From Akkermansia massiliensis (GTDB taxonomy: Bacteria; Verrucomicrobiota; Verrucomicrobiia; Verrucomicrobiales; Akkermansiaceae), in assembly GCF_023516715.1 (NCBI RefSeq), contig NZ_JAMGSI010000002.1, forward strand, positions 372,001-436,000: DNA of 64,000 nucleotides, in the 5' to 3' direction. Below are positions 1 through 58,778 of this stretch, one piece after another. A model generated the notes under the pieces. The model worked only from the letters and a program-made list of their open reading frames with translations. It was not told the DNA's origin and did no database searches. Numbering within the stretch: position 1 is the first letter of the stretch; every line of letters begins with the position of its first letter. Made by a program: the position numbers and the translations under genes.

Positions 1-2
1 TC

Positions 3-1502
3 ATGCTGCAAGGCAAAGGAACCTTCGTCATTCCTTCTTCCAGGGAAGGGCAGCTCACGCGCCTGGCCATGCAGGATTCCACCGGAAAAGAAATACCCTG
101 CAATCCCTATCAGCCATGGGGAACGCCCGGCAAGCTCAATCCTTCCCATGTCACCGGGTCCCACTCATCATCCTCTCCCGGTTCACCCTACAAAACCCTG
201 CAATTCTCCTGCGGATTCAGGGAGCTTCCGGCCCCTCAATCGGAATGGCTGCGCATCCGCGGGACCTGGACCGTCCAGTTCTGCCCGGAACCGCAGCGGC
301 TGATGCTGAAGCAAACGGTCAAACCGGCGGAAGAACCCCAGACTTTTTATCTGGACCTTCCGGAACCGAACGTCCGGGAGGACAGCGACATCGCCCGGGC
401 CGATTCCGCCAGCAACACTGCTTCCATTCAGCTGAAAACCAACGAAGAGCGGACCACCCTCTCCTGCGAGGCGGAATTCCCCTCTTCCGCTTCCATTCAA
501 GGCTTTGCCATTCTGGATTCCTCCGGACTCCCCATACCGGGCCTGCGGCGCGCCCATACGCCGGAAATCACAGAACATAAAGATGGTAAAACCAGCATTT
601 CCTGCCTGCATGAAATGGAAGAAGGAGCGGGAAAACCATCCCCTTCCCTTCCCCGTGAATTGAATCTCGGCGTCGTTTACCTTCCCCGCAAACATTCACT
701 GGATGTTCCCATTGACCTGGCCGTGAACCCTTCCCTCTCTCCGCCTTCCACTCCCCGGGAAGCGGTGAACAACCATGAATCCGGCCTCTCCGCACAACCG
801 TCACCGGCTCTTCAGGTAAAATTATACAATTGGGTTTTCCATAAAGAAGGCCATGAACCCGTCTTCCTCGGCATTTACATTCATACGGATAAAAACCACG
901 CCCTGCTTAATGATATGGAACAGCAGGGCGCCAGTTACATCAACCTTTCCACCCCCGGCGGAAAAACAGCCGTTCACTGCCGGGTTCATCCCCCCACATG
1001 GGGCACTTCCACCTACAATATGCTTTTTTTCCCTCTTCCCCGTTCACTGCCTCCCGGCGACAAGGGATGGCTGCTGACCGGGGAGCTCCGCGTGCCGGCC
1101 GGAGAGGTCCGGACAACTCCGGCCCGGACGATTTCCGCAGAACCGGGCAAACAATGGGCGATCGACGTTCCGGGGGCATCCGGAGATTATCCTCCCTTCC
1201 AGGTTCAGGCCACCCTCCTCAGCATCAAGCCCTCAGCAAAGGAATTCCGGGCCACCTTCAAGTTGAAGGGTCACCATGGAAATCCGCATTTCAGCGGCTT
1301 CCATGTGGAAGGGGGCATGCAGATCATGTCCAACAAGGACCCGGAGGATGAAACCGCGCAGCTCATCACCTATTCCTTTCCGCACTCTCCCGCTACTTTA
1401 AGCTGCTGTGTAAAATACATCGGCCGCCCAACCGTCATACGCCACCCCCTGAACATGCGCATCGGGCTGGGAGGCATCGTCCCGGACCCTCCGGAAAAAT
1501 GA
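3..1502 (+). CDS. Hypothetical repeat-type protein, 5'-partial
   Basis: I do not recognise this protein. The frame is open from the window edge, so the ATG at position 3 may not be the true start and the gene probably begins upstream. The visible 499 residues contain no membrane segment. They look like about four divergent modules of roughly 110-130 residues. Each opens with a beta-strand-like stretch (near residues 140, 265 and 400) and closes with a short Leu/Pro-rich strand such as 'RELNLGVVYLPRKHSLDVPI'. Spacers are rich in Ser, Pro and Thr. This suggests an extracellular or periplasmic beta-sandwich protein, which is inference. The stop lies 52 bases before the preferred start of the downstream acetyltransferase. 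No function is assigned. Confidence 0.7.
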   Translation: MLQGKGTFVIPSSREGQLTRLAMQDSTGKEIPCNPYQPWGTPGKLNPSHVTGSHSSSSPGSPYKTLQFSCGFRELPAPQSEWLRIRGTWTVQFCPEPQRLMLKQTVKPAEEPQTFYLDLPEPNVREDSDIARADSASNTASIQLKTNEERTTLSCEAEFPSSASIQGFAILDSSGLPIPGLRRAHTPEITEHKDGKTSISCLHEMEEGAGKPSPSLPRELNLGVVYLPRKHSLDVPIDLAVNPSLSPPSTPREAVNNHESGLSAQPSPALQVKLYNWVFHKEGHEPVFLGIYIHTDKNHALLNDMEQQGASYINLSTPGGKTAVHCRVHPPTWGTSTYNMLFFPLPRSLPPGDKGWLLTGELRVPAGEVRTTPARTISAEPGKQWAIDVPGASGDYPPFQVQATLLSIKPSAKEFRATFKLKGHHGNPHFSGFHVEGGMQIMSNKDPEDETAQLITYSFPHSPATLSCCVKYIGRPTVIRHPLNMRIGLGGIVPDPPEK

Positions 1503-1554
1503 CATTCCGCTTTTTTTCATGGCTTCCGTCCTGCTACGGAACCATGATGGAGGC

Positions 1555-2007
1555 ATGATCCGGCAAGCGTCCCGGGAAGATTTTCCGGCAATCCTGAAGC
1601 TTCAATTACTCGCCTTCGGAGAAGTGGCGGAGCGGCTTGGACTCGCCAGCATCCCGCCTCTGGAACAAACCCTGGAACATTTGCGGGAAGAGGCGCGGAA
1701 CAGCGTCTTCTTCAAGTATACGGAAAACAGCCGCATCGTCGGCTCCGTCAGGGGCTGTCTGGACGGCAAAAACGTCTGCCATGTCGGCAAGCTGGTTGTG
1801 GACCCGGCCCGCCGGAACAGGGGAATCGGCCAGCAACTCATGCTTGCCCTGGAAGAACACTTCCGCGGACAGGCAGCCGCCTACCTTCTGTTCACTTCGG
1901 CAGATACTCCTGAAACCCTGTATCTGTACCTCAAACTGGGCTATACGGAACTGTACCGGAAAGAGGCCGGAGGGATGACCACGGTGTTTCTGGAAAAGAA
2001 GGCGTGA
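1555..2007 (+). CDS. GNAT family N-acetyltransferase
   Basis: The product (about 150 aa) should transfer an acetyl group from acetyl-CoA to an amine; the substrate cannot be read from sequence. The GNAT fold is visible: an N-terminal beta strand (MIRQASREDF), a central 'VGKLVVDPARRNRGIGQQLM' stretch containing the Arg-rich acetyl-CoA pyrophosphate loop (R-x-x-G-I-G, near residues 83-91), and the C-terminal 'LYLKLGYTELYRKEAGG' motif. I chose the ATG at 1555 because GNAT proteins normally start at this strand. An in-frame ATG at 1519 would add 12 residues. Neither start has a well-spaced ribosome binding site. The small gene that follows is convergent, so this gene may be the end of its transcript. 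Confidence 0.8.
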   Translation: MIRQASREDFPAILKLQLLAFGEVAERLGLASIPPLEQTLEHLREEARNSVFFKYTENSRIVGSVRGCLDGKNVCHVGKLVVDPARRNRGIGQQLMLALEEHFRGQAAAYLLFTSADTPETLYLYLKLGYTELYRKEAGGMTTVFLEKKA

Positions 2008-2022
2008 GGGCGCCGGAAGCCC

Positions 2023-2271
2023 TCATTCCATCAGCTTCCACACAGCCAGCCGGGTGATGGAGCCTATCAGCAGAAGAGCCGCCGCAATTAGGAAGGGAGA
2101 CCATCCCAGCGCCCCCGCAGCCAGCAGAAACGCCACGGCGCACACCAATAGAAAAGCATTGATGAACCGCATCAGGCTCCATTCCTCCGGATAGAGGGGC
2201 GATAGGCTGAAGGCATCCGCCAGCCTGTCCATCACGAATTCAAGAATTTCACTTTCCATCCATTCCCACAT
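2023..2271 (-). CDS. Small two-helix membrane protein, function unknown
   Basis: An 82-residue protein with an acidic, aromatic N-terminal stretch of about 30 residues (MWEWMESEILEFVMDRLADAF) followed by two hydrophobic segments at about 36-54 and 57-76 and a short basic tail. It is probably an inner-membrane hairpin. No family is recognised. A second in-frame ATG at 2259 is possible. It is convergent with the acetyltransferase gene (15-base gap). An operator-like palindrome lies upstream at 2309-2330. The composition looks coding, but only the membrane prediction supports the call. Confidence 0.55.
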   Translation of the reverse strand: MWEWMESEILEFVMDRLADAFSLSPLYPEEWSLMRFINAFLLVCAVAFLLAAGALGWSPFLIAAALLLIGSITRLAVWKLME

Positions 2272-2308
2272 AGACTTAACTTTTTTACCGCAATTTGACC
2301 ATCAATGA

Positions 2309-2330
2309 TTTACCTGCACATGCAAGTAAA
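2309..2330. promoter_or_regulatory. Operator-like imperfect palindrome
   Basis: TTTACcTGCA-CA-TGCAaGTAAA has 10-base arms with 9 matches and a 2-base centre. It lies 38 bases upstream of the small membrane protein start, in the gap beyond the polyferredoxin gene. The compact dyad resembles a binding site for a dimeric repressor. The regulator is unknown. Confidence 0.35.
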
Positions 2331-2366
2331 AGAATGGTCGGAGTTTTTCATGATGAAAGGGTTTTT

Positions 2367-2391
2367 CAAGGGCCCGGAGGCCCTTGTTCCC
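2367..2391. repeat. Hairpin repeat, copy A
   Basis: CAAGGGCC-CGGA-GGCCCTTG followed by TTCCC. The perfect 8-base stem is 24 of 25 bases identical to a second copy at 11775-11799. It lies 86 bases beyond the stop codon of the minus-strand polyferredoxin gene. No T-tract follows on either strand, so it is not a standard intrinsic terminator. Confidence 0.6.
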
Positions 2392-2476
2392 GGCAGCGCG
2401 AGCATCAGGCAACACAGGGGAATGGGGCCGCCCATTGCGTGGACAAAACAGGCATCCCGGCCTTCACGGACCCTAT

Positions 2477-4234
2477 TCAGAACGGGAAGTCCGCATCGCC
2501 CACCGGGTCCACGGCCTTTTCCTCAAACTTCTTCACGGCTTTCTGCTGGGGATTCACGGCGCGGACGACGAGCGCGCGGGGCGGCATTTCCCGGCGCTTT
2601 TTGAACTCGCACTTTTCCTCGCACAGGTTGCAGGTATTCAGGCGCGCGCGTTCCTCAGGCCGTTCCGTGGTGACGGGGCAGGCATGTTCGCACGCGCCGC
2701 AGCCGATGCACAGGGAGGGGTCCAGCCTGGGCAGGCGGTGTTCCTGGCCGTCCCGCCCGATGTAGGGCACCGTATAAAGGGCCTTGGTGGGGCAATGCTC
2801 CGTACAGGCGCCGCAGTCCATGTCCTCCCGGGCAACCAGGCAGCGGCAGACGTAAAACCGGGCTACGGCGATGCGCGTGGTATCCTTCGTAATTTCCGCG
2901 GTATCCCTCTCCGCAGTAATGGGCAGCCTGCGAATGGCTCCTGTGGGGCAGACTTCCGCGCAGCGGTGGCAGTCGTACAGACAATACTTGGTGGAAAAAT
3001 CCATCCGGGGCTTCATGAACCCTTTCAGCCCAAGCTGCAAATAGGCGGGCTGGAGCACATGGGTAGGGCAGTTGGCAATGCACATCTGGCAGCCGGTGCA
3101 AACATCCAGAAAACGTTCCAGGGAACCGGCTCCGGGAGGAAGAACGCACTGGGTGGGGTCCAGCCTCTGGGCGGCGTCGCCCCGGCATCCGGAAAGAGCC
3201 GCCGTAGCCAGGCCGGCCGCCGTAGCCCCCAGGAACTGGCGGCGGGAGCTCCCGGCAATGAAGGGAACCGCGGCAGAAGAAGCGGGAGCGGGCGCCGGAG
3301 CGGTTTTTTTCTTCCTGGCGGGAATCAGGCGGCGGGTTTTGGCAAACCAGCGGTAGCGTATCCCCCCCTCGCTGCACGAACGCACGCAGTCATAGCATGC
3401 TACGCAGCGGGAGGCGTCTATTTTGTATTCCTTGAGGTTCAGGCACTGGGCCTTGCATGATTTGACGCATTTGCCGCATTTCTTGCAGGAGGCGGGATCA
3501 AAGCCCAGCCGGAAGAGGGAAACGCGGGAAAGCAGCCCCAGCAGAGTACCGACGGGGCATACCGTATTGCAGTACAACCGCCCTTTCCAGGCGCTCATGG
3601 CGACCACCAGGCCGAGCATGCCGGCAGAAGCCAGCAGAGCCGGGAGAGCCACGGGAAAATAATTCATCCGGACCAGGTCCGCGGAAGAACTGTCAGCCGC
3701 CAGCAGGTTATTGCTCCAGATGGCGGCAGGCCACGCCAGCACATACATGATGCGCCCGAAAATGCTGTACGGGTCCAGCCAGTTCAGGGAAAGTCCGGCC
3801 AGTCCCGTCACGCAGCAGGCGGCCAGCAAAACCAGAACCACATACCGCACCCACGGCACGGGGCGCGCAAACTTCAAGAAGCGCTTCGGCGCAATCCAGC
3901 GGCGGATTCTGAAAACGATGTCCTGGAGAATCCCCAGCGGACAGAGGAAGGAGCAGTACACCCTCCCGAACAGCAGCGTAAGCAGCAGCAGAACCGCCAG
4001 AATCACGGCGGAAACGGCCACCCCGTCCAGAGTCCCGAGCACGGATGGAATGAATTGCCACTGAGCCAGGAAAAAGGAGTCTTCCATGCCCTCTCCGCCG
4101 CCCGTCATGTTCGGCACGTTCCACGCGGGGATATGGTGCAGGAAAGCGTACGCAATCCCGAGGAAGAAGATGACGGCCACCGTCACGCGGAGCCACTTCA
4201 GCGGACTGACGAAAAAGGCTTTGATGACTGACAT
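2477..4234 (-). CDS. Membrane polyferredoxin, NapH-NapG-like fusion
   Basis: A 585-residue electron-transfer protein. Residues 1-240 resemble NapH/NosR-type membrane ferredoxins: transmembrane helices near 12-34, 70-92, 128-150 and 193-215, with the characteristic C-x3-C-P motifs at C94-C98 and C222-C226. Two [4Fe-4S] motifs follow (C250/253/256/260 and C277/280/283/287). At 329-350 there is an internal twin-arginine-like segment, SSRRQFL plus a hydrophobic stretch ending in ALSGC. The C-terminal part carries further cluster motifs at C379/382/385/389, C418/422/425/429, C474/477/481 with C463 or C465, and C509/512/515/519, plus an extra C535/538/542 group, as in NapG. A NapH-like quinol-side module fused to a NapG-like ferredoxin is inferred. 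The gene lies 69 bases downstream of a Tat-exported DUF362 protein, probably in one operon. No nitrate reductase subunit is nearby, so the terminal acceptor is unknown. Confidence 0.85.
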   Translation of the reverse strand: MSVIKAFFVSPLKWLRVTVAVIFFLGIAYAFLHHIPAWNVPNMTGGGEGMEDSFFLAQWQFIPSVLGTLDGVAVSAVILAVLLLLTLLFGRVYCSFLCPLGILQDIVFRIRRWIAPKRFLKFARPVPWVRYVVLVLLAACCVTGLAGLSLNWLDPYSIFGRIMYVLAWPAAIWSNNLLAADSSSADLVRMNYFPVALPALLASAGMLGLVVAMSAWKGRLYCNTVCPVGTLLGLLSRVSLFRLGFDPASCKKCGKCVKSCKAQCLNLKEYKIDASRCVACYDCVRSCSEGGIRYRWFAKTRRLIPARKKKTAPAPAPASSAAVPFIAGSSRRQFLGATAAGLATAALSGCRGDAAQRLDPTQCVLPPGAGSLERFLDVCTGCQMCIANCPTHVLQPAYLQLGLKGFMKPRMDFSTKYCLYDCHRCAEVCPTGAIRRLPITAERDTAEITKDTTRIAVARFYVCRCLVAREDMDCGACTEHCPTKALYTVPYIGRDGQEHRLPRLDPSLCIGCGACEHACPVTTERPEERARLNTCNLCEEKCEFKKRREMPPRALVVRAVNPQQKAVKKFEEKAVDPVGDADFPF

Positions 4235-4303
4235 ATTTATTTTAAACCCGCCGGAGGCGGAAAGTTGGCCCCCTTCGCGTCATCCGCAGGAGGGGGCGCC
4301 GCG

Positions 4304-5218
4304 TCAGGCCATGCTGATGCGGCGGATATTGAGCTTGGAAAGGTCGGCGGTGCCCAGCCCCATTTCTTCCCCAAGCTGCACGTGGCGGATCTTTCCGGCC
4401 TTGTTCAGCAGGGCCGCGCCTGCGGCGTCAATGGCTACGATGTCACGGGAAGCCAGAAGGGTTTTGCGCTCCACCAGGTCATTCGTGTCCTTCCCCACGG
4501 GGCCGTTGCGCACCATGGGCATGTAGGCGTCCAGCACGCACAGGTCCGGCTTGCGGAAATACACGGCGTCCGCGATGCACTGGTGCAGGTCGTTCTTATG
4601 CATGGCTCCACGGTCCCAGACGGTGCCCATCACGTTCTTCATGCAGGCGGTCATCTCGGAACCGCTGTGGTGCTTGAGCGGGGGGCAGGTGATATAAACG
4701 TCCGCTTCCAGCACGGCCTTGTGCACCTTGGCGGAGGTGAATTTTTTGGCCTTCGGGTTTTCCGTCTGCACGTACTGCCCTTCATTGCCGCCGTCCACCA
4801 TCACGCCCCCGGCTTTTTCCACGGCCTCTTTCACGCCGCTGCCTTCATAGGCGCCGTTGTGGCAGCAGTGGTCGAATACCCTGACTTCCTTCGCCCCCGC
4901 CTGCTTGCACAGCTCCACCAGCGTGGCGACGGTTTCAGGATGGGTGTTGGAGCCGAATTCCGGAGCCTTGTTCCAGCCGATGTTGGGCTTGATCACGACG
5001 GTCTGGCCCGGCTTGACGAATGCCTTCATGCCTCCCAGCGTATCCACGGCCTTCCTGACCATTTCCGCACGGGTTCCGTTGCGGACGGCCACCAAGTCCG
5101 GAATGCCGGAAGCTGCCGAAGCTCCGGCCTCCTGGGCGAACAGGGAATCCATGTCCGATATGGCTGCCAGCGCCCCTACGGCGGCAGTCCCTTTTAGAAA
5201 AGTGCGTCTGTCAGTCAT
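4304..5218 (-). CDS. Tat-exported DUF362 domain protein
   Basis: A 304-residue protein starting with a clear twin-arginine signal (DRRTFLKGTAAVGALAAIS, residues 3-21), so it should be exported folded, with a cofactor or partner. The body matches DUF362: 'VVIKPNIGWN' near residues 73-82, a 'VFDHCCHNGAY' segment with paired Cys near 116-117, 'CPPLKHHSGSEMTACMKNVMG' near 176-196 and a C-terminal 'DIVAIDAAGAALL' strand. DUF362 proteins often occur beside iron-sulfur proteins, but their reaction is undefined. This one is the first gene of a two-gene unit with the polyferredoxin. I infer that the two exchange electrons outside the cytoplasm. Confidence 0.85.
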   Translation of the reverse strand: MTDRRTFLKGTAAVGALAAISDMDSLFAQEAGASAASGIPDLVAVRNGTRAEMVRKAVDTLGGMKAFVKPGQTVVIKPNIGWNKAPEFGSNTHPETVATLVELCKQAGAKEVRVFDHCCHNGAYEGSGVKEAVEKAGGVMVDGGNEGQYVQTENPKAKKFTSAKVHKAVLEADVYITCPPLKHHSGSEMTACMKNVMGTVWDRGAMHKNDLHQCIADAVYFRKPDLCVLDAYMPMVRNGPVGKDTNDLVERKTLLASRDIVAIDAAGAALLNKAGKIRHVQLGEEMGLGTADLSKLNIRRISMA

Positions 5219-5238
5219 CTTCGTTGCAAAGTCAGTGG

Positions 5239-5267
5239 TTTATCCCCGCATGCAAAGGCATGTACAA
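5239..5267 (-). promoter_or_regulatory. Candidate promoter of the DUF362 operon, with a dyad in the spacer
   Basis: On the minus strand, TTGTAC (5262-5267) and GATAAA (5239-5244) are separated by 17 bases, about 20 bases upstream of the DUF362 start. The spacer holds a CATGC-AAAG-GCATG dyad (5249-5262) that overlaps the last base of the -35 hexamer, where a repressor could sit. Confidence 0.4.
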
Positions 5268-5347
5268 GGTTTTATGCCTCTTCCTAACATACGCCTTGCT
5301 GAAAAACAACCTGTCATCATTCCTGCACGGGAATTTTTACAAACGAA

Positions 5348-5374
5348 TTGTCATACAGGGGCGGCTCCTATAAA
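5348..5374 (+). promoter_or_regulatory. Candidate promoter of the methyltransferase gene
   Basis: TTGTCA (5348-5353) and TATAAA (5369-5374) are separated by 15 bases. Transcription from this -10 would start at about the ATG at 5383, giving a leaderless mRNA, or a leader of about 28 bases if the next in-frame ATG (5410) is used. The short spacing lowers confidence. Confidence 0.3.
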
Positions 5375-5382
5375 ACCCGGTC

Positions 5383-5958
5383 ATGAAATGTTCCCTGCTC
5401 AGCCGTCCCATGACCTGCACGCATGACTGGATCAGCCGCGTCGTCCTGCCCGGGGATACGGTCGTGGACGCTACGGCAGGCAACGGACACGACACGGTTT
5501 TCCTGGCCCGTCTGGCCGGCCCTTCCGGCCAGGTGCACGCCTTTGACGTGCAGGAGGAAGCCATTCGCGCCACCAGGGAGCGTCTGGAGAAAGAAGGGCT
5601 GCTCACCTCCGCCGTCCACCTCCATCTGGCCAGCCATGACCGCCTGGCGGAACTGGTCACCGGTCCCGTGAAGGCCGTCGTCTTCAACCTGGGCTACCTG
5701 CCGGGCGGGGATAAAAAAACGATCACCAGAACGGGCTGCACCCTGGCGGCGCTGGAACAGGCCGCCGCCCTCATCGCCCCGAACGGCCTTCTCAGCGTCA
5801 TGTGCTATCCCGGCCACGAAGGCGGGGATGCGGAAGCGGAAGCCGTGGAGGATTTCCTTTCCCGCCTGCCGCACCATTCCTGGCGCACCGGCAAATACCA
5901 GCTCCTGAATACCGGAACTCCGGCCCCCTTCCAGATCTGCGCGTTCAGGCTGGACTGA
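5383..5958 (+). CDS. mnmM: MnmM/YtqB-like SAM-dependent methyltransferase
   Basis: The 191-residue protein matches the small YtqB/MnmM family (formerly 'putative rRNA methylase'), which methylates the wobble uridine (nm5s2U34 to mnm5s2U34) of certain tRNAs. Visible motifs are the SAM loop VDATAGNGHDTVFLA (about 28-42), the acidic strand end FDVQEEA (about 59-65), and VVFNLGYLPGGDKK (about 103-116), which carries the family's N-L-G-Y-L-P-G signature. Almost the whole length is the Rossmann methyltransferase core. The next gene is convergent, so this gene is probably monocistronic. The start could be the ATG at 5383 or the one at 5410. The family assignment is strong; the exact tRNA substrate is by analogy. 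Confidence 0.8.
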   Translation: MKCSLLSRPMTCTHDWISRVVLPGDTVVDATAGNGHDTVFLARLAGPSGQVHAFDVQEEAIRATRERLEKEGLLTSAVHLHLASHDRLAELVTGPVKAVVFNLGYLPGGDKKTITRTGCTLAALEQAAALIAPNGLLSVMCYPGHEGGDAEAEAVEDFLSRLPHHSWRTGKYQLLNTGTPAPFQICAFRLD

Positions 5959-6017
5959 CCTTCCCCGTAAAAATACGGGAACAAGGCCAGTTCACCATCA
6001 AATGCCCGGAAAAACCA

Positions 6018-6638
6018 TCAGTCCCGGCATTCCTTCATCCATTCCACCACCTGCGCCAGAGCCCGGGCGCGGTGCGACATGGAATTCTTCACCTCCATGG
6101 GAAGCTGGGCAAAACTCAGTTCATGGCCTTCCGGGACAAACAGCGGATCATAGCCGAACCCCCCTTCCCCGGCCGGTTCCGTCAGCATGTGGCCTTCCAC
6201 GGAACCGGAAAACTCCGCCAGCACGCTGCCATTCCTGGCAAGCACCATCACGCAGCGGAACCGTGCGGAGGGCTTGTCCCCCGGCTTGACTCCGGCGCGC
6301 CGCAGTTCCTCCATCATGCGGAGGTTGTTCCGCGCGTGGTTCCCTTCCTCCCCGCCGAAGGAGGAGGACCAGACGCCGGGACGGCCGCCCAGCACATCCA
6401 CCTCCAGCCCGGAATCATCCGCCAGCAGGACGCCGGGAATGCACCTGGAGGCGGAAAGCGCCTTGAGCGTGGCGTTCTCCGTAAACGTGACTCCCGTTTC
6501 ATCCACGGGCGGAGCCTGGGGGTAGTCGGAAAGGTCCTTCACTTCCCATTCTCCGGCCAGCATGGCGCGGATTTCCCCGGTCTTGTGGGCGTTGCGCGTG
6601 GCAACCACCAGCAGAGGCAATTCTTGTTCCATCATCAT
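6018..6638 (-). CDS. rdgB: XTP/dITP diphosphatase (RdgB/HAM1 family)
   Basis: Hydrolyses non-canonical purine nucleoside triphosphates (dITP, XTP) to monophosphates and pyrophosphate, keeping them out of DNA and RNA. Family signatures are present: the N-terminal S/T-x-N-x-x-K motif as ATRNAHKTGEI, GVTFTENATLKA, the catalytic LADDSGLEVDVLGGRPGVWSS, and FGYDPLFVPEGHELSFAQL near the C-terminus with SHRARAL at the end. I start at the ATG cluster 6638/6635/6632, which gives about 206 aa, the usual family length. A TTG 48 bases further upstream would overlap the exonuclease gene. The stop of the upstream exonuclease III gene is 37 bases away, so the two probably form a nucleic-acid-protection operon. 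Confidence 0.93.
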   Translation of the reverse strand: MMMEQELPLLVVATRNAHKTGEIRAMLAGEWEVKDLSDYPQAPPVDETGVTFTENATLKALSASRCIPGVLLADDSGLEVDVLGGRPGVWSSSFGGEEGNHARNNLRMMEELRRAGVKPGDKPSARFRCVMVLARNGSVLAEFSGSVEGHMLTEPAGEGGFGYDPLFVPEGHELSFAQLPMEVKNSMSHRARALAQVVEWMKECRD

Positions 6639-6675
6639 GAATTTTTGCAGTTGAAAACCGTATGGAAGACCGCGT

Positions 6676-7437
6676 TCAGCAGTCAATTTCCAGGCTGACG
6701 GGGCAATGGTCGGACCCCGTCACGTCCGGATGGATGGCGGCGCCCTTCACCCTGGGAGCCAGCGGATTGGAAACGCAGAAGTAGTCAATGCGCCATCCGA
6801 CGTTCCGGGCGCGGGCGCCTGCGCGGTAGGACCACCAGCTGTACCAGCCCGGTTCCTCCGGATGCAGGGCGCGGAAGGTATCCGTGAACCCGGCCTCAAG
6901 CAGCAGCGTGAACCCGGCGCGCTCCTGGTCGCTGAACCCGGCGGAAAAACGGTTCTCCCTGGGGCGGGCGATGTCGATCTCCTCATGGGCTACATTCAAA
7001 TCCCCGCAGAAGACGACCGGCTTGGTTTCCGCCAAGGCCGCCACATACTTGCGGAACGCAGCATCCCACTGTTCTCGGTACGGGAGGCGCACCAGCTCGT
7101 TCTGGGAATTGGGGGTATAGCAGTTGACCAGGTAAAACTGTTCAAACTCCATCGTGCACACGCGCCCCTCCCGGTCATGCTCCGGCCAGCCGATTCCGGT
7201 GGACGTGGAAAGGGGCTGCACACGGCTGAGGATCAGCACGCCGGAATAACCGGCCTTCTCCGCCGGATTCCAGAGCTGGTGCGGCCAGGAGGAAATCCAC
7301 AGGTCATTCACCTGTTCTGGACGCGCCTTGATCTCCTGAAGGCAGAGGACGTCCGGCTCCAGCGCCTCCACGGCGTCCCCCATTCCCTTGCCGAGGATCG
7401 CCCGCAATCCGTTCACATTCCATGAGACGAGTTTCAT
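6676..7437 (-). CDS. xth: Exodeoxyribonuclease III (AP endonuclease family 1)
   Basis: A 253-residue EEP-fold nuclease that cleaves abasic sites and removes 3'-blocking groups during base excision repair. Diagnostic motifs in order: MKLVSWNVNGLRA at the N-terminus (metal-binding Asn), LCLQEIKA with the metal-ligand Glu near residue 35, 'VFCGDLNVAHEEIDI' with the catalytic Asp/Asn pair, the 'YSWWSYRAGARARNVGWRIDY' substrate loop, and the C-terminal 'GSDHCPVSLEI' with the catalytic His. Length is typical. It is the upstream member of a two-gene unit with rdgB and is divergent from nusA across a 254-base gap. Confidence 0.95.
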   Translation of the reverse strand: MKLVSWNVNGLRAILGKGMGDAVEALEPDVLCLQEIKARPEQVNDLWISSWPHQLWNPAEKAGYSGVLILSRVQPLSTSTGIGWPEHDREGRVCTMEFEQFYLVNCYTPNSQNELVRLPYREQWDAAFRKYVAALAETKPVVFCGDLNVAHEEIDIARPRENRFSAGFSDQERAGFTLLLEAGFTDTFRALHPEEPGWYSWWSYRAGARARNVGWRIDYFCVSNPLAPRVKGAAIHPDVTGSDHCPVSLEIDC

Positions 7438-7636
7438 GCACGCATACTTCCCGTTTTTGCCGGCTCCGTCAAGCCCTCAAACACCCCCGCCCCGCACCCT
7501 TCCAGGGGACCGCTGAAAACCCTTCTTCCGGAATCATCCCCAGTCTTTTGCATGCCGCATAGAACAAGCGTTTTTTCTTGCCAGGACCGCCCCCTCATGC
7601 TTACTTAGATAGGCAAACACCCCGAGAGACACTCGA

Positions 7637-7664
7637 GAGTGGGTCTGTCGACCCGCTCTTTTTT
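7637..7664 (+). terminator. Terminator-like hairpin in the nusA leader
   Basis: GAGTGGGT (7637-7644), a 6-base loop, then ACCCGCTC (7651-7658) followed by six T. The stem is fully paired if one G-U wobble is allowed. It ends 27 bases before the nusA ATG, so it would stop transcription before the operon unless overridden. A small CGAG-AGACA-CTCG hairpin lies immediately upstream. This fits NusA-dependent attenuation. Confidence 0.6.
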
Positions 7665-7691
7665 GTCTATCCATCACACTCCTCCACACTC

Positions 7692-8987
7692 ATGACAAAC
7701 GATATCAAAGCTTTAATTGACTACTACGAGAGGGAAAAAGGGCTCTCCCGTGAAAAAATTCTTCTCGCTCTGGAATCCGCTTTTCTCTCCGCCTACCGCA
7801 AGATGGTTCCCGGCTCCGGCAGCATCAACTACCTGAGGGCTGAAATCAACGTGGACAAGGGGAAGGTGCGCATCTTTGCGGATCTGGAAGTGGTGCCGGA
7901 TGAAGAATACTCCGACAAGTTCAACCAAATCCCCCTCTCCCTGGCCGTCAAGCTGGACCGGAACGCCGTCCTGCACGACCTGCTGCCCACCAACATCACG
8001 CCGAAGGGCTTTGGCCGCATCGCGGTACAGACTGCCCGCCAGACCATGCTCCAGAAGCTGCTGGATGCGGAAAAGGAAATGCTTTACGACGAGTTCAAGG
8101 ACCGCGCCGGCGATCTGGTGACGGGCACCATCCGCCGCTTTGAAAAGGGGGACATCTTTGTGGACCTCGGCAAATTCGAGGGCGTCATGACCTCCCGCGA
8201 ACGCGTGCCGAATGAAGACTACAGCGTCGGCGACCGCATGCGCTTCTACGTGGTGGAAGTGCGCACGGAAGCCCGCGGACCGGAAGTCATCCTCTCCCGC
8301 AGCCATCCGAATCTGGTGCGCCGCCTCTTTGAATCGGAAGTGGTGGAAATAGGCGACCAGACCGTAGAAATCCACGGCATCGCCCGTGAAGCGGGCTACC
8401 GCACCAAGGTGGCCGTCATCAGCCATGACGACAAGGTGGACCCGGTGGGCGCATGCGTAGGCATGCGCGGAGCCCGCGTCAAAAACATTGTCCGGGAGCT
8501 CAACAACGAAAAAGTGGACATCCTGGAATGGACGGAGGACCCCGTCATCTTCGTCCGGGAGGCCCTCAGCCCCGTGGAACCGCGGGAAATCACCGTGGAC
8601 GAGGAAGCCAAAAAAATCTTCGTCATCGTCCAGGACGACAAGGACCTCTCCAAGGCCATCGGCCGCAGGGGCCAGAACGCCCGCCTCACCTCCCGCCTGA
8701 TGGGCTGGGACGTCCAGGTGCGCGTCTTTGACGTCCAGGAAGCGGAAAAACGCCAGAACCAGGCCGCGGCCGAGGAAGTGATGCGCCAATGCCAGGCCGC
8801 CGCAAAGACCCTCAGCGAACAACTGGAAATCCCAGAAGAAACCGCCATGGGCCTAGTGACCATGGGTGGGACGGACCTGGTGGCCCTCACCGGATTTGAA
8901 GCTTCCGACATCGCGGAAAGCATGGGCATTCCCGCAGAGGAAGCCGCCCAGATTCTGGACAAGGCCCGGGACCTTATCTCCCAATAA
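7692..8987 (+). CDS. nusA: Transcription termination/antitermination factor NusA
   Basis: A 431-residue RNA polymerase-binding factor controlling pausing, termination and antitermination. Order of domains: N-terminal RNAP-binding domain (about 1-135, MTNDIKALIDYYEREKG start), S1 domain (about 136-205, GDLVTGTIRRFEKGDIFVDLG), and KH1/KH2 (about 230-350, with DPVGACVGMRGARVKNIVREL and SKAIGRRGQNARLTSRLMGW). A short C-terminal helix-hairpin-helix-like tail is present rather than the two acidic repeats of E. coli NusA. The ATG at 7692 is chosen because it matches the family N-terminus; upstream codons in frame run through the leader hairpin. infB follows after 42 bases. rimP, the usual upstream neighbour, is absent. 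Confidence 0.95.
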   Translation: MTNDIKALIDYYEREKGLSREKILLALESAFLSAYRKMVPGSGSINYLRAEINVDKGKVRIFADLEVVPDEEYSDKFNQIPLSLAVKLDRNAVLHDLLPTNITPKGFGRIAVQTARQTMLQKLLDAEKEMLYDEFKDRAGDLVTGTIRRFEKGDIFVDLGKFEGVMTSRERVPNEDYSVGDRMRFYVVEVRTEARGPEVILSRSHPNLVRRLFESEVVEIGDQTVEIHGIAREAGYRTKVAVISHDDKVDPVGACVGMRGARVKNIVRELNNEKVDILEWTEDPVIFVREALSPVEPREITVDEEAKKIFVIVQDDKDLSKAIGRRGQNARLTSRLMGWDVQVRVFDVQEAEKRQNQAAAEEVMRQCQAAAKTLSEQLEIPEETAMGLVTMGGTDLVALTGFEASDIAESMGIPAEEAAQILDKARDLISQ

Positions 8988-9029
8988 CCGTTGAGCGCGG
9001 CGCTCAATATCTAACAAACTTAAATTAAG

Positions 9030-58676: not shown

Positions 58677-58778
58677 GCCGCCGGGAACCCCGTGGAGGCA
58701 CGACTGGCAAACCCCGCCAGGACCGAGAGGTAGCAACGGTAGCTTGTTCGTGTTTGCCGCGTCCGTTCCCGGCGGTAT
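58677..58778 (+). ncRNA. ffs: Signal recognition particle 4.5S RNA
   Basis: About 100 nt. The closing stem is CCGCCGGGAAC (58678-58688) with GTTCCCGGCGG (58765-58775), and a second stem is GGCAAAC (58706-58712) with GTTTGCC (58752-58758). The apical part carries the conserved Ffh-binding domain: CCAGG-ACC, a GAGA tetraloop (58725-58728), then GG-U-AGCAAC. The usual tetraloop is GGAA, so the GNRA-type loop is a variation. With Ffh it targets nascent membrane proteins to the translocon. A TATTTTATT tail may end transcription. It lies between the coiled-coil gene and folC. Confidence 0.88.

Follow-up and report, generated by a model that had tools for sequence, protein, structure and literature searches.

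In LarA enzymes the rare nickel-pincer nucleotide (NPN) cofactor accepts a hydride from a hydroxy acid and then hands it back (PMC7583248). About 15% of the genomes analysed in a 2024 study carry larB, larE and larC without larA, and the cyanobacterial LarB, LarE and LarC proteins really make NPN; the accessible text describes the protein using this NPN as yet to be identified and expects it to be of distinct sequence and fold (PMC11796402). Separately, a family of polyferredoxins with five membrane segments has been described as a fusion of NapH and NapG, in which a twin-arginine pair (RR) precedes a fifth segment inserted by the twin-arginine translocation (Tat) pathway, making it a dual family of the general secretory (Sec) and Tat pathways (PMC5449189, Tooke et al. 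2017); Tat-dependent translocation of the C-terminal half was shown for the MLMS-1 homologue Q1NSB0 in the same work. Here we consider a two-gene unit from Akkermansia massiliensis that might bring these two systems together. It lies on a stretch of 64,000 nucleotides (the window, G000:C2:372001-436000) of a 3.28 Mb assembly in three contigs, and encodes a Tat-signal protein of the DUF362 family followed by a NapH-NapG fusion polyferredoxin. We consider it reasonably probable that the pair forms a periplasmic redox module, in which DUF362 is a LarA-like NPN enzyme that exchanges electrons with the quinone pool by way of the fusion. To our knowledge, NPN has so far been found only in racemases and epimerases. 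The features of the unit are as follows:

4304..5218, minus strand: DUF362 gene, 304 amino acids with a Tat signal; proposed LarA-like NPN-binding enzyme
5132..5218, minus strand: Tat signal of DUF362, residues 1-29 (TDRRTFLKG...FAQ), matching PF10518
4667..4669, minus strand: codon of His184, in register with the catalytic His174 of LarA
4637..4639, minus strand: codon of Lys194, in register with the NPN-thioamide lysine (Lys184 of LarA; Lys195 of LarASp)
4598..4600, minus strand: codon of His207, in register with the nickel-coordinating histidine (His200 of LarA; His211 of LarASp)
4235..4303, minus strand: intergenic gap of 69 bp between DUF362 and the fusion, from the sequence
2477..4234, minus strand: NapH-NapG fusion polyferredoxin, 585 amino acids, with the architecture of the polyferredoxin of PMC5449189
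3335..4234, minus strand: NapH-like half, residues 1-300, with four hydrophobic segments, two CX3CP motifs and two 4Fe-4S motifs
3185..3250, minus strand: internal twin-arginine segment, residues 329-350, SSRRQFLGATAAGLATAALSGC, ending in a lipobox
2480..3184, minus strand: NapG-like Cys-rich half, residues 351-585, predicted periplasmic, matching NF007012

The DUF362 protein matches PF04015 with 174 bits against a gathering cut-off of 24 (E 4.8e-51), and its N-terminus matches the TAT_signal model PF10518 (E 6.3e-6). Conservation of the unit was assessed over 67 fusion loci of Verrucomicrobiota, namely the window, six loci of a genome-contig collection and 60 regions from 387 genomes of the phylum, the last of these taken mainly from the strongest fusion matches, which makes the sample non-random, with some species possibly present twice. 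A pair-type DUF362 (E<=1e-100, a border chosen after seeing a gap between 1e-116 and 1e-93) is encoded in 56 of the 67 loci and, wherever present, directly upstream of the fusion on the same strand (56/56). With gene starts set mechanically, the distance between the two genes falls between -8 and +6 bp in 33 of the 56 pairs and is exactly -4 bp in nine. All 56 pair-type proteins carry RRxF at their start, followed immediately by a lysine in 54. The scan of the genome-contig collection gave 15 loci, six from Akkermansiaceae at 59-96% identity and nine distant ferredoxin-like matches at 25-40% identity over part of the query, and the pair is kept in 6/6 of the Akkermansiaceae loci. This, together with an RR in the internal segment of all 64 readable fusions (67 were aligned, three being too short), indicates that neither the pair nor the internal RR is a product of chance. 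Hence, the preliminary description of this DNA was right in recognizing a two-gene unit of a Tat-signal DUF362 protein and a NapH-NapG fusion, here placed on the minus strand, although its upper coordinate of 5267 runs 49 bp beyond the DUF362 start codon at 5218. It had reported no NapA or NosZ next to the pair, which fits the open reading frames (ORFs) in positions 1-9000 of the window, the genomes and the 67 flanks not having been searched for NapA, NosZ or NrfA; and in the survey across Verrucomicrobiota that it called for, DUF362 accompanies the fusion in 56 of the 67 loci, which does not bear out its refuting case of a fusion confined to loci of known nitrate or trimethylamine N-oxide reductases.

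The same description had called the chemistry of the exported DUF362 protein undefined; the export signal stands, while a likeness to LarA-type NPN enzymes was missed. According to PMC11770544, whose accessible part treats DUF362 only as a LarA outgroup, Pfam assigns DUF362 to the same clan as the LarA domain; DUF362 has also been noted to occur with CBM9 modules (PMC5742341). An AlphaFold model of the window DUF362 was built from seven sequences, with a mean predicted local distance difference test score (pLDDT) of 47.2, a predicted template modelling score of 0.55 and the best-modelled residues at 41-150. Its sole Foldseek match among PDB structures at E<=0.001 is the LarA-like NPN enzyme 9q3j (5.0e-4). 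Similarly, the ten best rows in the VIA comparison of the model are all of the malate racemase/LarA type (Z 7.0-8.0, root-mean-square deviation 3.6-4.0), with the LarA-type rows covering 146-154 residues between model positions 46 and 228. At the low confidence of the model, DUF362 thus looks like a LarA-type fold of the cofactor-binding domain, and it seems to keep the cofactor-binding half of the LarA machine.

At the sequence level, the comparison used a profile of pair-type DUF362 (A3; 42 proteins, obtained by reducing the 56 to 43 at <80% identity and removing L098, the most distant at 30% identity to the window protein), a profile of eight DUF362 paralogues (A5) and a LarA profile (A4). 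A5 gave four matches to E 10 among 177,635 PDB sequences, the first being the LarA-like 9q2u at a weak E of 0.074, followed by two unrelated proteins and then the LarA-like 9q3j (0.4). In the alignment with 9q2u, which the entry titles suggest to be LarASp, residues 195 and 211 are matched by the lysine and the histidine of DUF362, respectively; in LarASp, Lys195 anchors NPN and His211 binds nickel (PMC12611868, one passage of which prints His221). Since hhalign aligns A5 with A3 over its length (E 5.4e-10), this register carries over to Lys194 and His207 of the window DUF362. Together with His184, these residues are invariant in the 42/42 members of A3, and in the larger pair-type set His184 and Lys194 are each kept in 56/56 and His207 in 55/56. 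The LarA pattern (A4) reads His-x9-Lys-x15-His as against His-x9-Lys-x12-His in pair-type DUF362, and the former spacing also occurs in a second DUF362 of the same genome and in several other DUF362 genes, with x16 as the final spacing in L210-L213. That second DUF362 (L206 6323-7468; G000:C1:1242490-1243137) has an RR start along with the exact LarA His-Lys-His spacing, and no polyferredoxin was found near it in the 14 kb read. In direct searches of PDB sequences, phmmer with the window DUF362 returned nothing to E 1 and A3 gave two matches to E 10, neither of them LarA. Whole-genome scans with the LarA domain model Lar_N (PF09861) were made for 29 genomes picked mainly for weak Lar_N matches (G105, G261, G123 and G211 for larC with DUF362) and overlapping in genera, eight being g71 and five g90; the best match was a DUF362 gene, as judged by A5, in 21 and another gene in eight.

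LarA-type enzymes are the best structural neighbours of the low-confidence DUF362 model, with the catalytic histidine, the NPN-lysine and the nickel-histidine in register and the cofactor genes in the same genome. Unlike LarA, which has about 425 amino acids, the window DUF362 has about 300, bears a Tat signal and has no Lar_N match; further, its Lys-to-His distance is 13 rather than 16, and its partner is an electron-transfer protein. Another DUF362 family, Npun_F2552 (NF052623), covers most of the window DUF362 (E 1.9e-19), but with 70 bits against a curated cut-off of 500 the protein is not a member of it.

The distribution of the cofactor-synthesis genes adds a second line of evidence. In the host genome larC, larE and larB stand in a row, on another contig than the pair, with scores above their cut-offs (LarB 281 bits against 175, LarE 266 against 150, LarC1 200 against 90, LarC2 132 against 50), and LarA, sought as Lar_N, is absent at E 0.001. 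Among 23 Akkermansia genomes, LarB (searched with one protein as query), LarC, above-cut-off LarE and any DUF362 are all found in the same 18 and none of them in the other five, with LarA in 0/23 at E 0.001. Across the 387 genomes of the phylum, LarC occurs in 62 of the 73 with a pair-type DUF362 versus 176 of the 314 without (p 2e-6), and among those with no Lar_N match in 28/31 versus 42/143 (p 3e-10), these p-values ignoring kinship. As a yardstick, LarC is present in 85 of the 109 genomes with a strong LarA; DUF362 therefore tracks LarC about as well as LarA itself does. Conversely, hand-made tallies of 191 LarA-absent genomes give DUF362 at E<=1e-30 in 59/85 with LarC versus 13/106 without it; these include 17 genomes moved to the LarA-absent set once their Lar_N match proved to be a DUF362 (44/70 versus 11/104 before the move), and the DUF362 borders of 1e-30 and 1e-8 were chosen by eye. 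LarC is variable within nine genera: in three of them (g1, g71, g75) DUF362 comes and goes with it, five lack DUF362 in either state, and g62 has it in both. For lineages beyond Verrucomicrobiota, 14 control genomes provide hints: DUF362, LarC and LarA all occur in Thermotoga maritima and Methanosarcina acetivorans; Synechococcus elongatus and Haloferax volcanii have the first two but lack LarA at E<=0.001; DUF362 is present and LarC absent in Bacteroides ihuae; and LarC is the only one of the three in Corynebacterium glutamicum and Methanocaldococcus jannaschii. In one genome (G217:C1:200578-201355) the LarE match is broken into two neighbouring pieces that lie in different frames, as a frameshift or a sequencing error would produce.

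The same genes also come together in gene clusters in 16 genomes, which were chosen because matches to lar genes, DUF362 or a polyferredoxin stood close to one another. In transcription order, G006 presents DUF362-fusion-larB-larC-larE, and G228 larC-larE-larB-(GNAT/MarR gene)-DUF362-fusion. A polyferredoxin and a DUF362 paralogue flank larB-larC-larE in G261 (polyferredoxin-larB-larC-larE-DUF362 paralogue), the order is DUF362 paralogue-larB-larC-larE in G105, G069, G283 and G005, polyferredoxin-larB-TatC-DUF362 paralogue in G070, and polyferredoxin-larB-larC-larE in G135; the remaining clusters are those of G009, G281, G049, G322, G171, G377 and G211. In locus L214 a TatC gene (8063-8788) lies beside the polyferredoxin gene, between larB and the DUF362 gene. 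The clusters of G377 (L200 6870-12904) and G171 (L201 6745-12138) hold a polyferredoxin, an aldo/keto reductase and larE-larB-larC; despite these lar genes, neither DUF362 nor LarA was found in the two genomes. A polyferredoxin accompanies an aldo/keto reductase also in L204 (11255-12676) and L215 (7676-8908). The aldo/keto reductases beside polyferredoxins, identified by Pfam, carry a C-terminal 4Fe-4S domain, and that of L204 has a Tat signal.

From the computed pairing, fusion anatomy, LarA-like fold (in a low-confidence model), site register, and co-occurrence and clustering with larB, larC and larE, we infer NPN loading, export of the loaded form, a membrane topology, quinone coupling and net redox chemistry along the following lines. 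NPN made by LarB, LarC and LarE would be loaded on DUF362, probably via a thioamide to Lys194 and nickel coordination by His207, and the loaded protein would then be exported in folded form by Tat. Sec would insert the four NapH-like helices of the fusion and Tat its fifth segment, such that two 4Fe-4S clusters would face the cytoplasm and about four the periplasm, allowing the fusion to pass electrons from the quinone pool to DUF362 or back. NPN could act as the hydride-carrying site as in LarA, with the two electrons of the hydride leaving or arriving through the Fe-S chain; the constant presence of a transmembrane Fe-S partner suggests that electrons are exchanged with the quinone pool rather than returned to the same substrate. 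A periplasmic substrate, perhaps a 2-hydroxy or 2-oxo acid, would thereby undergo net oxidation or reduction in place of racemization. Because NapGH oxidizes quinol, we lean towards reduction of a periplasmic compound from quinol, with the reverse as the less likely direction. Hence, of the earlier proposal that DUF362 ends a quinol-to-periplasm path, the conserved unit and the probable role of DUF362 as its catalytic end hold up, while the electrons may run from quinol to DUF362 or the other way.

We propose DUF362 as a specific candidate for the user of the orphan NPN pathway. A search of the literature by title and the start of the abstract, with subscription papers mostly outside its reach, found no link between DUF362 and NPN. 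If the proposal is true, a long-sought NPN user would be identified, and nickel-pincer chemistry would extend from the hidden redox of racemization to net redox outside the cytoplasm. DUF362, a domain of unknown function, and the dual Sec/Tat polyferredoxins would further gain a role, with the pair wiring an exported enzyme to the electron supply of the cell in the gut bacterium Akkermansia, a genus that draws broad medical attention. A broader version, to which we give slightly less than an even chance, is that DUF362 is the missing non-LarA NPN family in bacteria and archaea at large, LarA-less cyanobacteria and haloarchaea among them, performing net redox chemistry in which NPN exchanges hydride with a substrate and a dedicated Fe-S protein carries the electrons; in Verrucomicrobiota this would take place in the periplasm with the quinone pool, and the Akkermansia fusion may be cut at its internal Tat-lipoprotein signal into two parts, the NapH-like one a membrane protein and the NapG-like one a lipoprotein.

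Several results weigh against a LarA-like, NPN-dependent DUF362. The structural model is weak, with residues 179-218 and 223-304 below a pLDDT of 50; a Z of up to 8 in the VIA comparison can reflect a common arrangement, and NAD-dependent alcohol dehydrogenases come next at Z 6.4-6.8, level with the lower rows of LarA. The direct profile comparison of LarA (A4) with pair-type DUF362 (A3) by hhalign is not significant (E 0.67), and that with A5 reaches only E 0.086, its best segment having His-x9-Lys in register. Lar_N is absent up to E 5 from ten pair-type proteins including that of the window in a HMMER search whose filters discard most weak Lar_N matches, and at E<=1 Lar_N also finds matches in the DUF362-less controls B. 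subtilis and D. chartae. The association with LarC becomes weaker when collapsed to genus (19/43 versus 9/61, p 0.0014, likewise ignoring kinship), and one genome of genus g63 (G029) has LarC without DUF362. NPN must also have other users, since DUF362 is missing at E<=1e-8 from 17 of the 85 genomes that have LarC but lack LarA. As for the clusters, larB, larC or larE lies in the fetched flanks of only 4 of the 67 fusion loci, and some larB-adjacent paralogues (L210-L213) have no RR signal, which sits badly with the export of a preloaded protein. Finally, six Opitutaceae (G080, G099, G140, G166, G178, G280) keep the pair without LarB, LarC or above-cut-off LarE, and six f36 genomes, searched for LarC and LarE, carry DUF362 but neither LarC nor above-cut-off LarE. 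Five of those Opitutaceae are represented in A3, all with intact site residues, and L217, the one f36 DUF362 read, keeps the His-x9-Lys motif; DUF362 in such genomes may use a different cofactor, or the NPN may come by a different route or be taken up. Since true LarA without LarB and LarC is likewise found in Opitutaceae (G166, G280, G060), the lar-less state does not single out DUF362.

Strong Lar_N matches with no LarC and no above-cut-off LarE were seen in six Opitutaceae (G060, G166, G280, G342, G354, G369), LarB being absent too in the three searched for it (G060, G166, G280). This suggests another source of NPN or an NPN-independent LarA in these organisms.

The lar-less genomes would be accommodated if quinol electrons passed through the fusion to a DUF362 reductase that holds a metal ion, an Fe-S cluster or no cofactor at all. 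Such an NPN-free arrangement, which follows the preliminary description and which we judge unlikely, agrees with the conservation of the pair, with the relationship of the fusion to NapGH, a quinol dehydrogenase (PMC5449189), with the pair in Opitutaceae lacking larB, larC and larE and the f36 DUF362 lacking larC and above-cut-off larE, and with the want of a nearby lar gene at most fusion loci. It nevertheless leaves unexplained the all-or-none co-occurrence of DUF362 with larB, larC and larE in Akkermansia and their shared clusters, as well as the LarA-like fold and the register of the lysine and histidine. The latter features would equally be expected if DUF362 used NPN to racemize or epimerize a hydroxy acid in the periplasm, with the fusion merely keeping the cofactor redox-active, in keeping with LarA enzymes being racemases and epimerases (PMC11796402). 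We hold this to be improbable: racemization needs no net electrons, yet a polyferredoxin lies immediately downstream of all 56 pair-type genes, and the second domain of LarA is unmatched, the LarA rows ending at model residue 228. We know of no LarA enzyme that needs a polyferredoxin partner.

The clustering with larB, larC and larE and the export alongside an Fe-S protein would also suit a DUF362 that is not an enzyme, acting instead as a carrier or chaperone for nickel or NPN, or as an Fe-S inserter for the fusion. This appears very improbable, given the full conservation of the catalytic-type His184 and the many invariant polar residues; furthermore, LarA-less genomes like that of the window would then make NPN without a known user enzyme. 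An NPN-bound DUF362 exchanging electrons through the fusion remains our preferred interpretation.

Turning to the fusion, its internal anatomy agrees with the preliminary description in having a NapH-like half with two CX3CP motifs (at Cys94 and Cys222, both in the membrane half), then a twin-arginine segment at residues 329-350 with RR at 331-332, and then a NapG-like half. CX2CX2CX3C motifs lie at Cys250 and Cys277, and the last half holds two more, at 379 and 509. Hydropathy gives four peaks at residues 14-32, 71-89, 132-150 and 195-213, the third of them merging with a minor peak at 122-140, and the fifth segment after the RR is weakly hydrophobic (0.85 on the Kyte-Doolittle scale over 333-351). 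Both halves are recognized by family models at scores below their cut-offs: TIGR02163 (NapH) with 71 bits against 213 (E 1.1e-19), and NF007012 (NapG) over residues 329-520 with 47 bits against 269 (E 1.7e-12). An AlphaFold model of the fusion from seven sequences reached a pLDDT of 32.5, too low to be of use. Both motif sets and their order are common to the window fusion and the NapGH of nitrate respiration, from which the fusion differs in being one chain, in scoring under the NapH and NapG cut-offs and in having DUF362 as its partner. The description had presented the fusion as unusual; it is real, but belongs to an already published family (PMC5449189). With Q1NSB0 of that family it shares the NapH-NapG fusion, five segments (by hydropathy for the window), a weakly hydrophobic fifth segment with the RR immediately ahead of it, and predicted clusters on both sides. 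In contrast to Q1NSB0, whose partner gene is not discussed in the accessible text of PMC5449189, the Akkermansia fusion has a lipobox where the Tat segment ends. Taken by itself, the fusion is a further member of a family already described, and the novelty lies in the proposed role of the pair.

In the internal segment, Cys350 is invariant in the 7/7 fusions of alignment A1, and a PPG motif follows just after the segment in 64/64 fusions (as PAG in L059). The segment closes with a lipobox in Akkermansia (ALSGC, ALSSC), where lipidation and cleavage by LspA could, judging by this motif, split the fusion chain. A lipobox-like end was scored in 14 of the 64 fusions, that of L083 being doubtful by eye, and the lipobox is thus not a feature of the family.

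Some individual loci deserve mention. One of the 11 fusion loci without a pair-type DUF362 (L071) lies at a contig end, and a separate contig of its genome (G290) carries such a DUF362; L056, also among the 11, has just downstream a Tat-signal protein that by eye is an aldo/keto reductase, like those identified by Pfam beside other polyferredoxins. In L105 (5204-5950) and L093 (6525-7385), two more of the 11, the neighbour of the polyferredoxin is by eye a TatC. Long ORFs in L063, L066 and L098 raised the possibility of DUF362 fusions, which we rejected as the extra stretch has no domain recognizable by eye; we take it to be open frame upstream of the true start. A scan of viral contigs with A3 found no relative of the pair-type proteins.

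A sigma-70 promoter scan found none against 1.1 expected and a terminator scan four against 3.9 expected. An ORF of 82 amino acids resembling a membrane protein (2023-2271, minus strand) lies 3' of the fusion and occurs in 4/6 Akkermansiaceae loci; it is probably separate. The only Rfam match of the window above its gathering score is a bacterial small signal recognition particle RNA (RF00169) at 58681-58775 on the plus strand.

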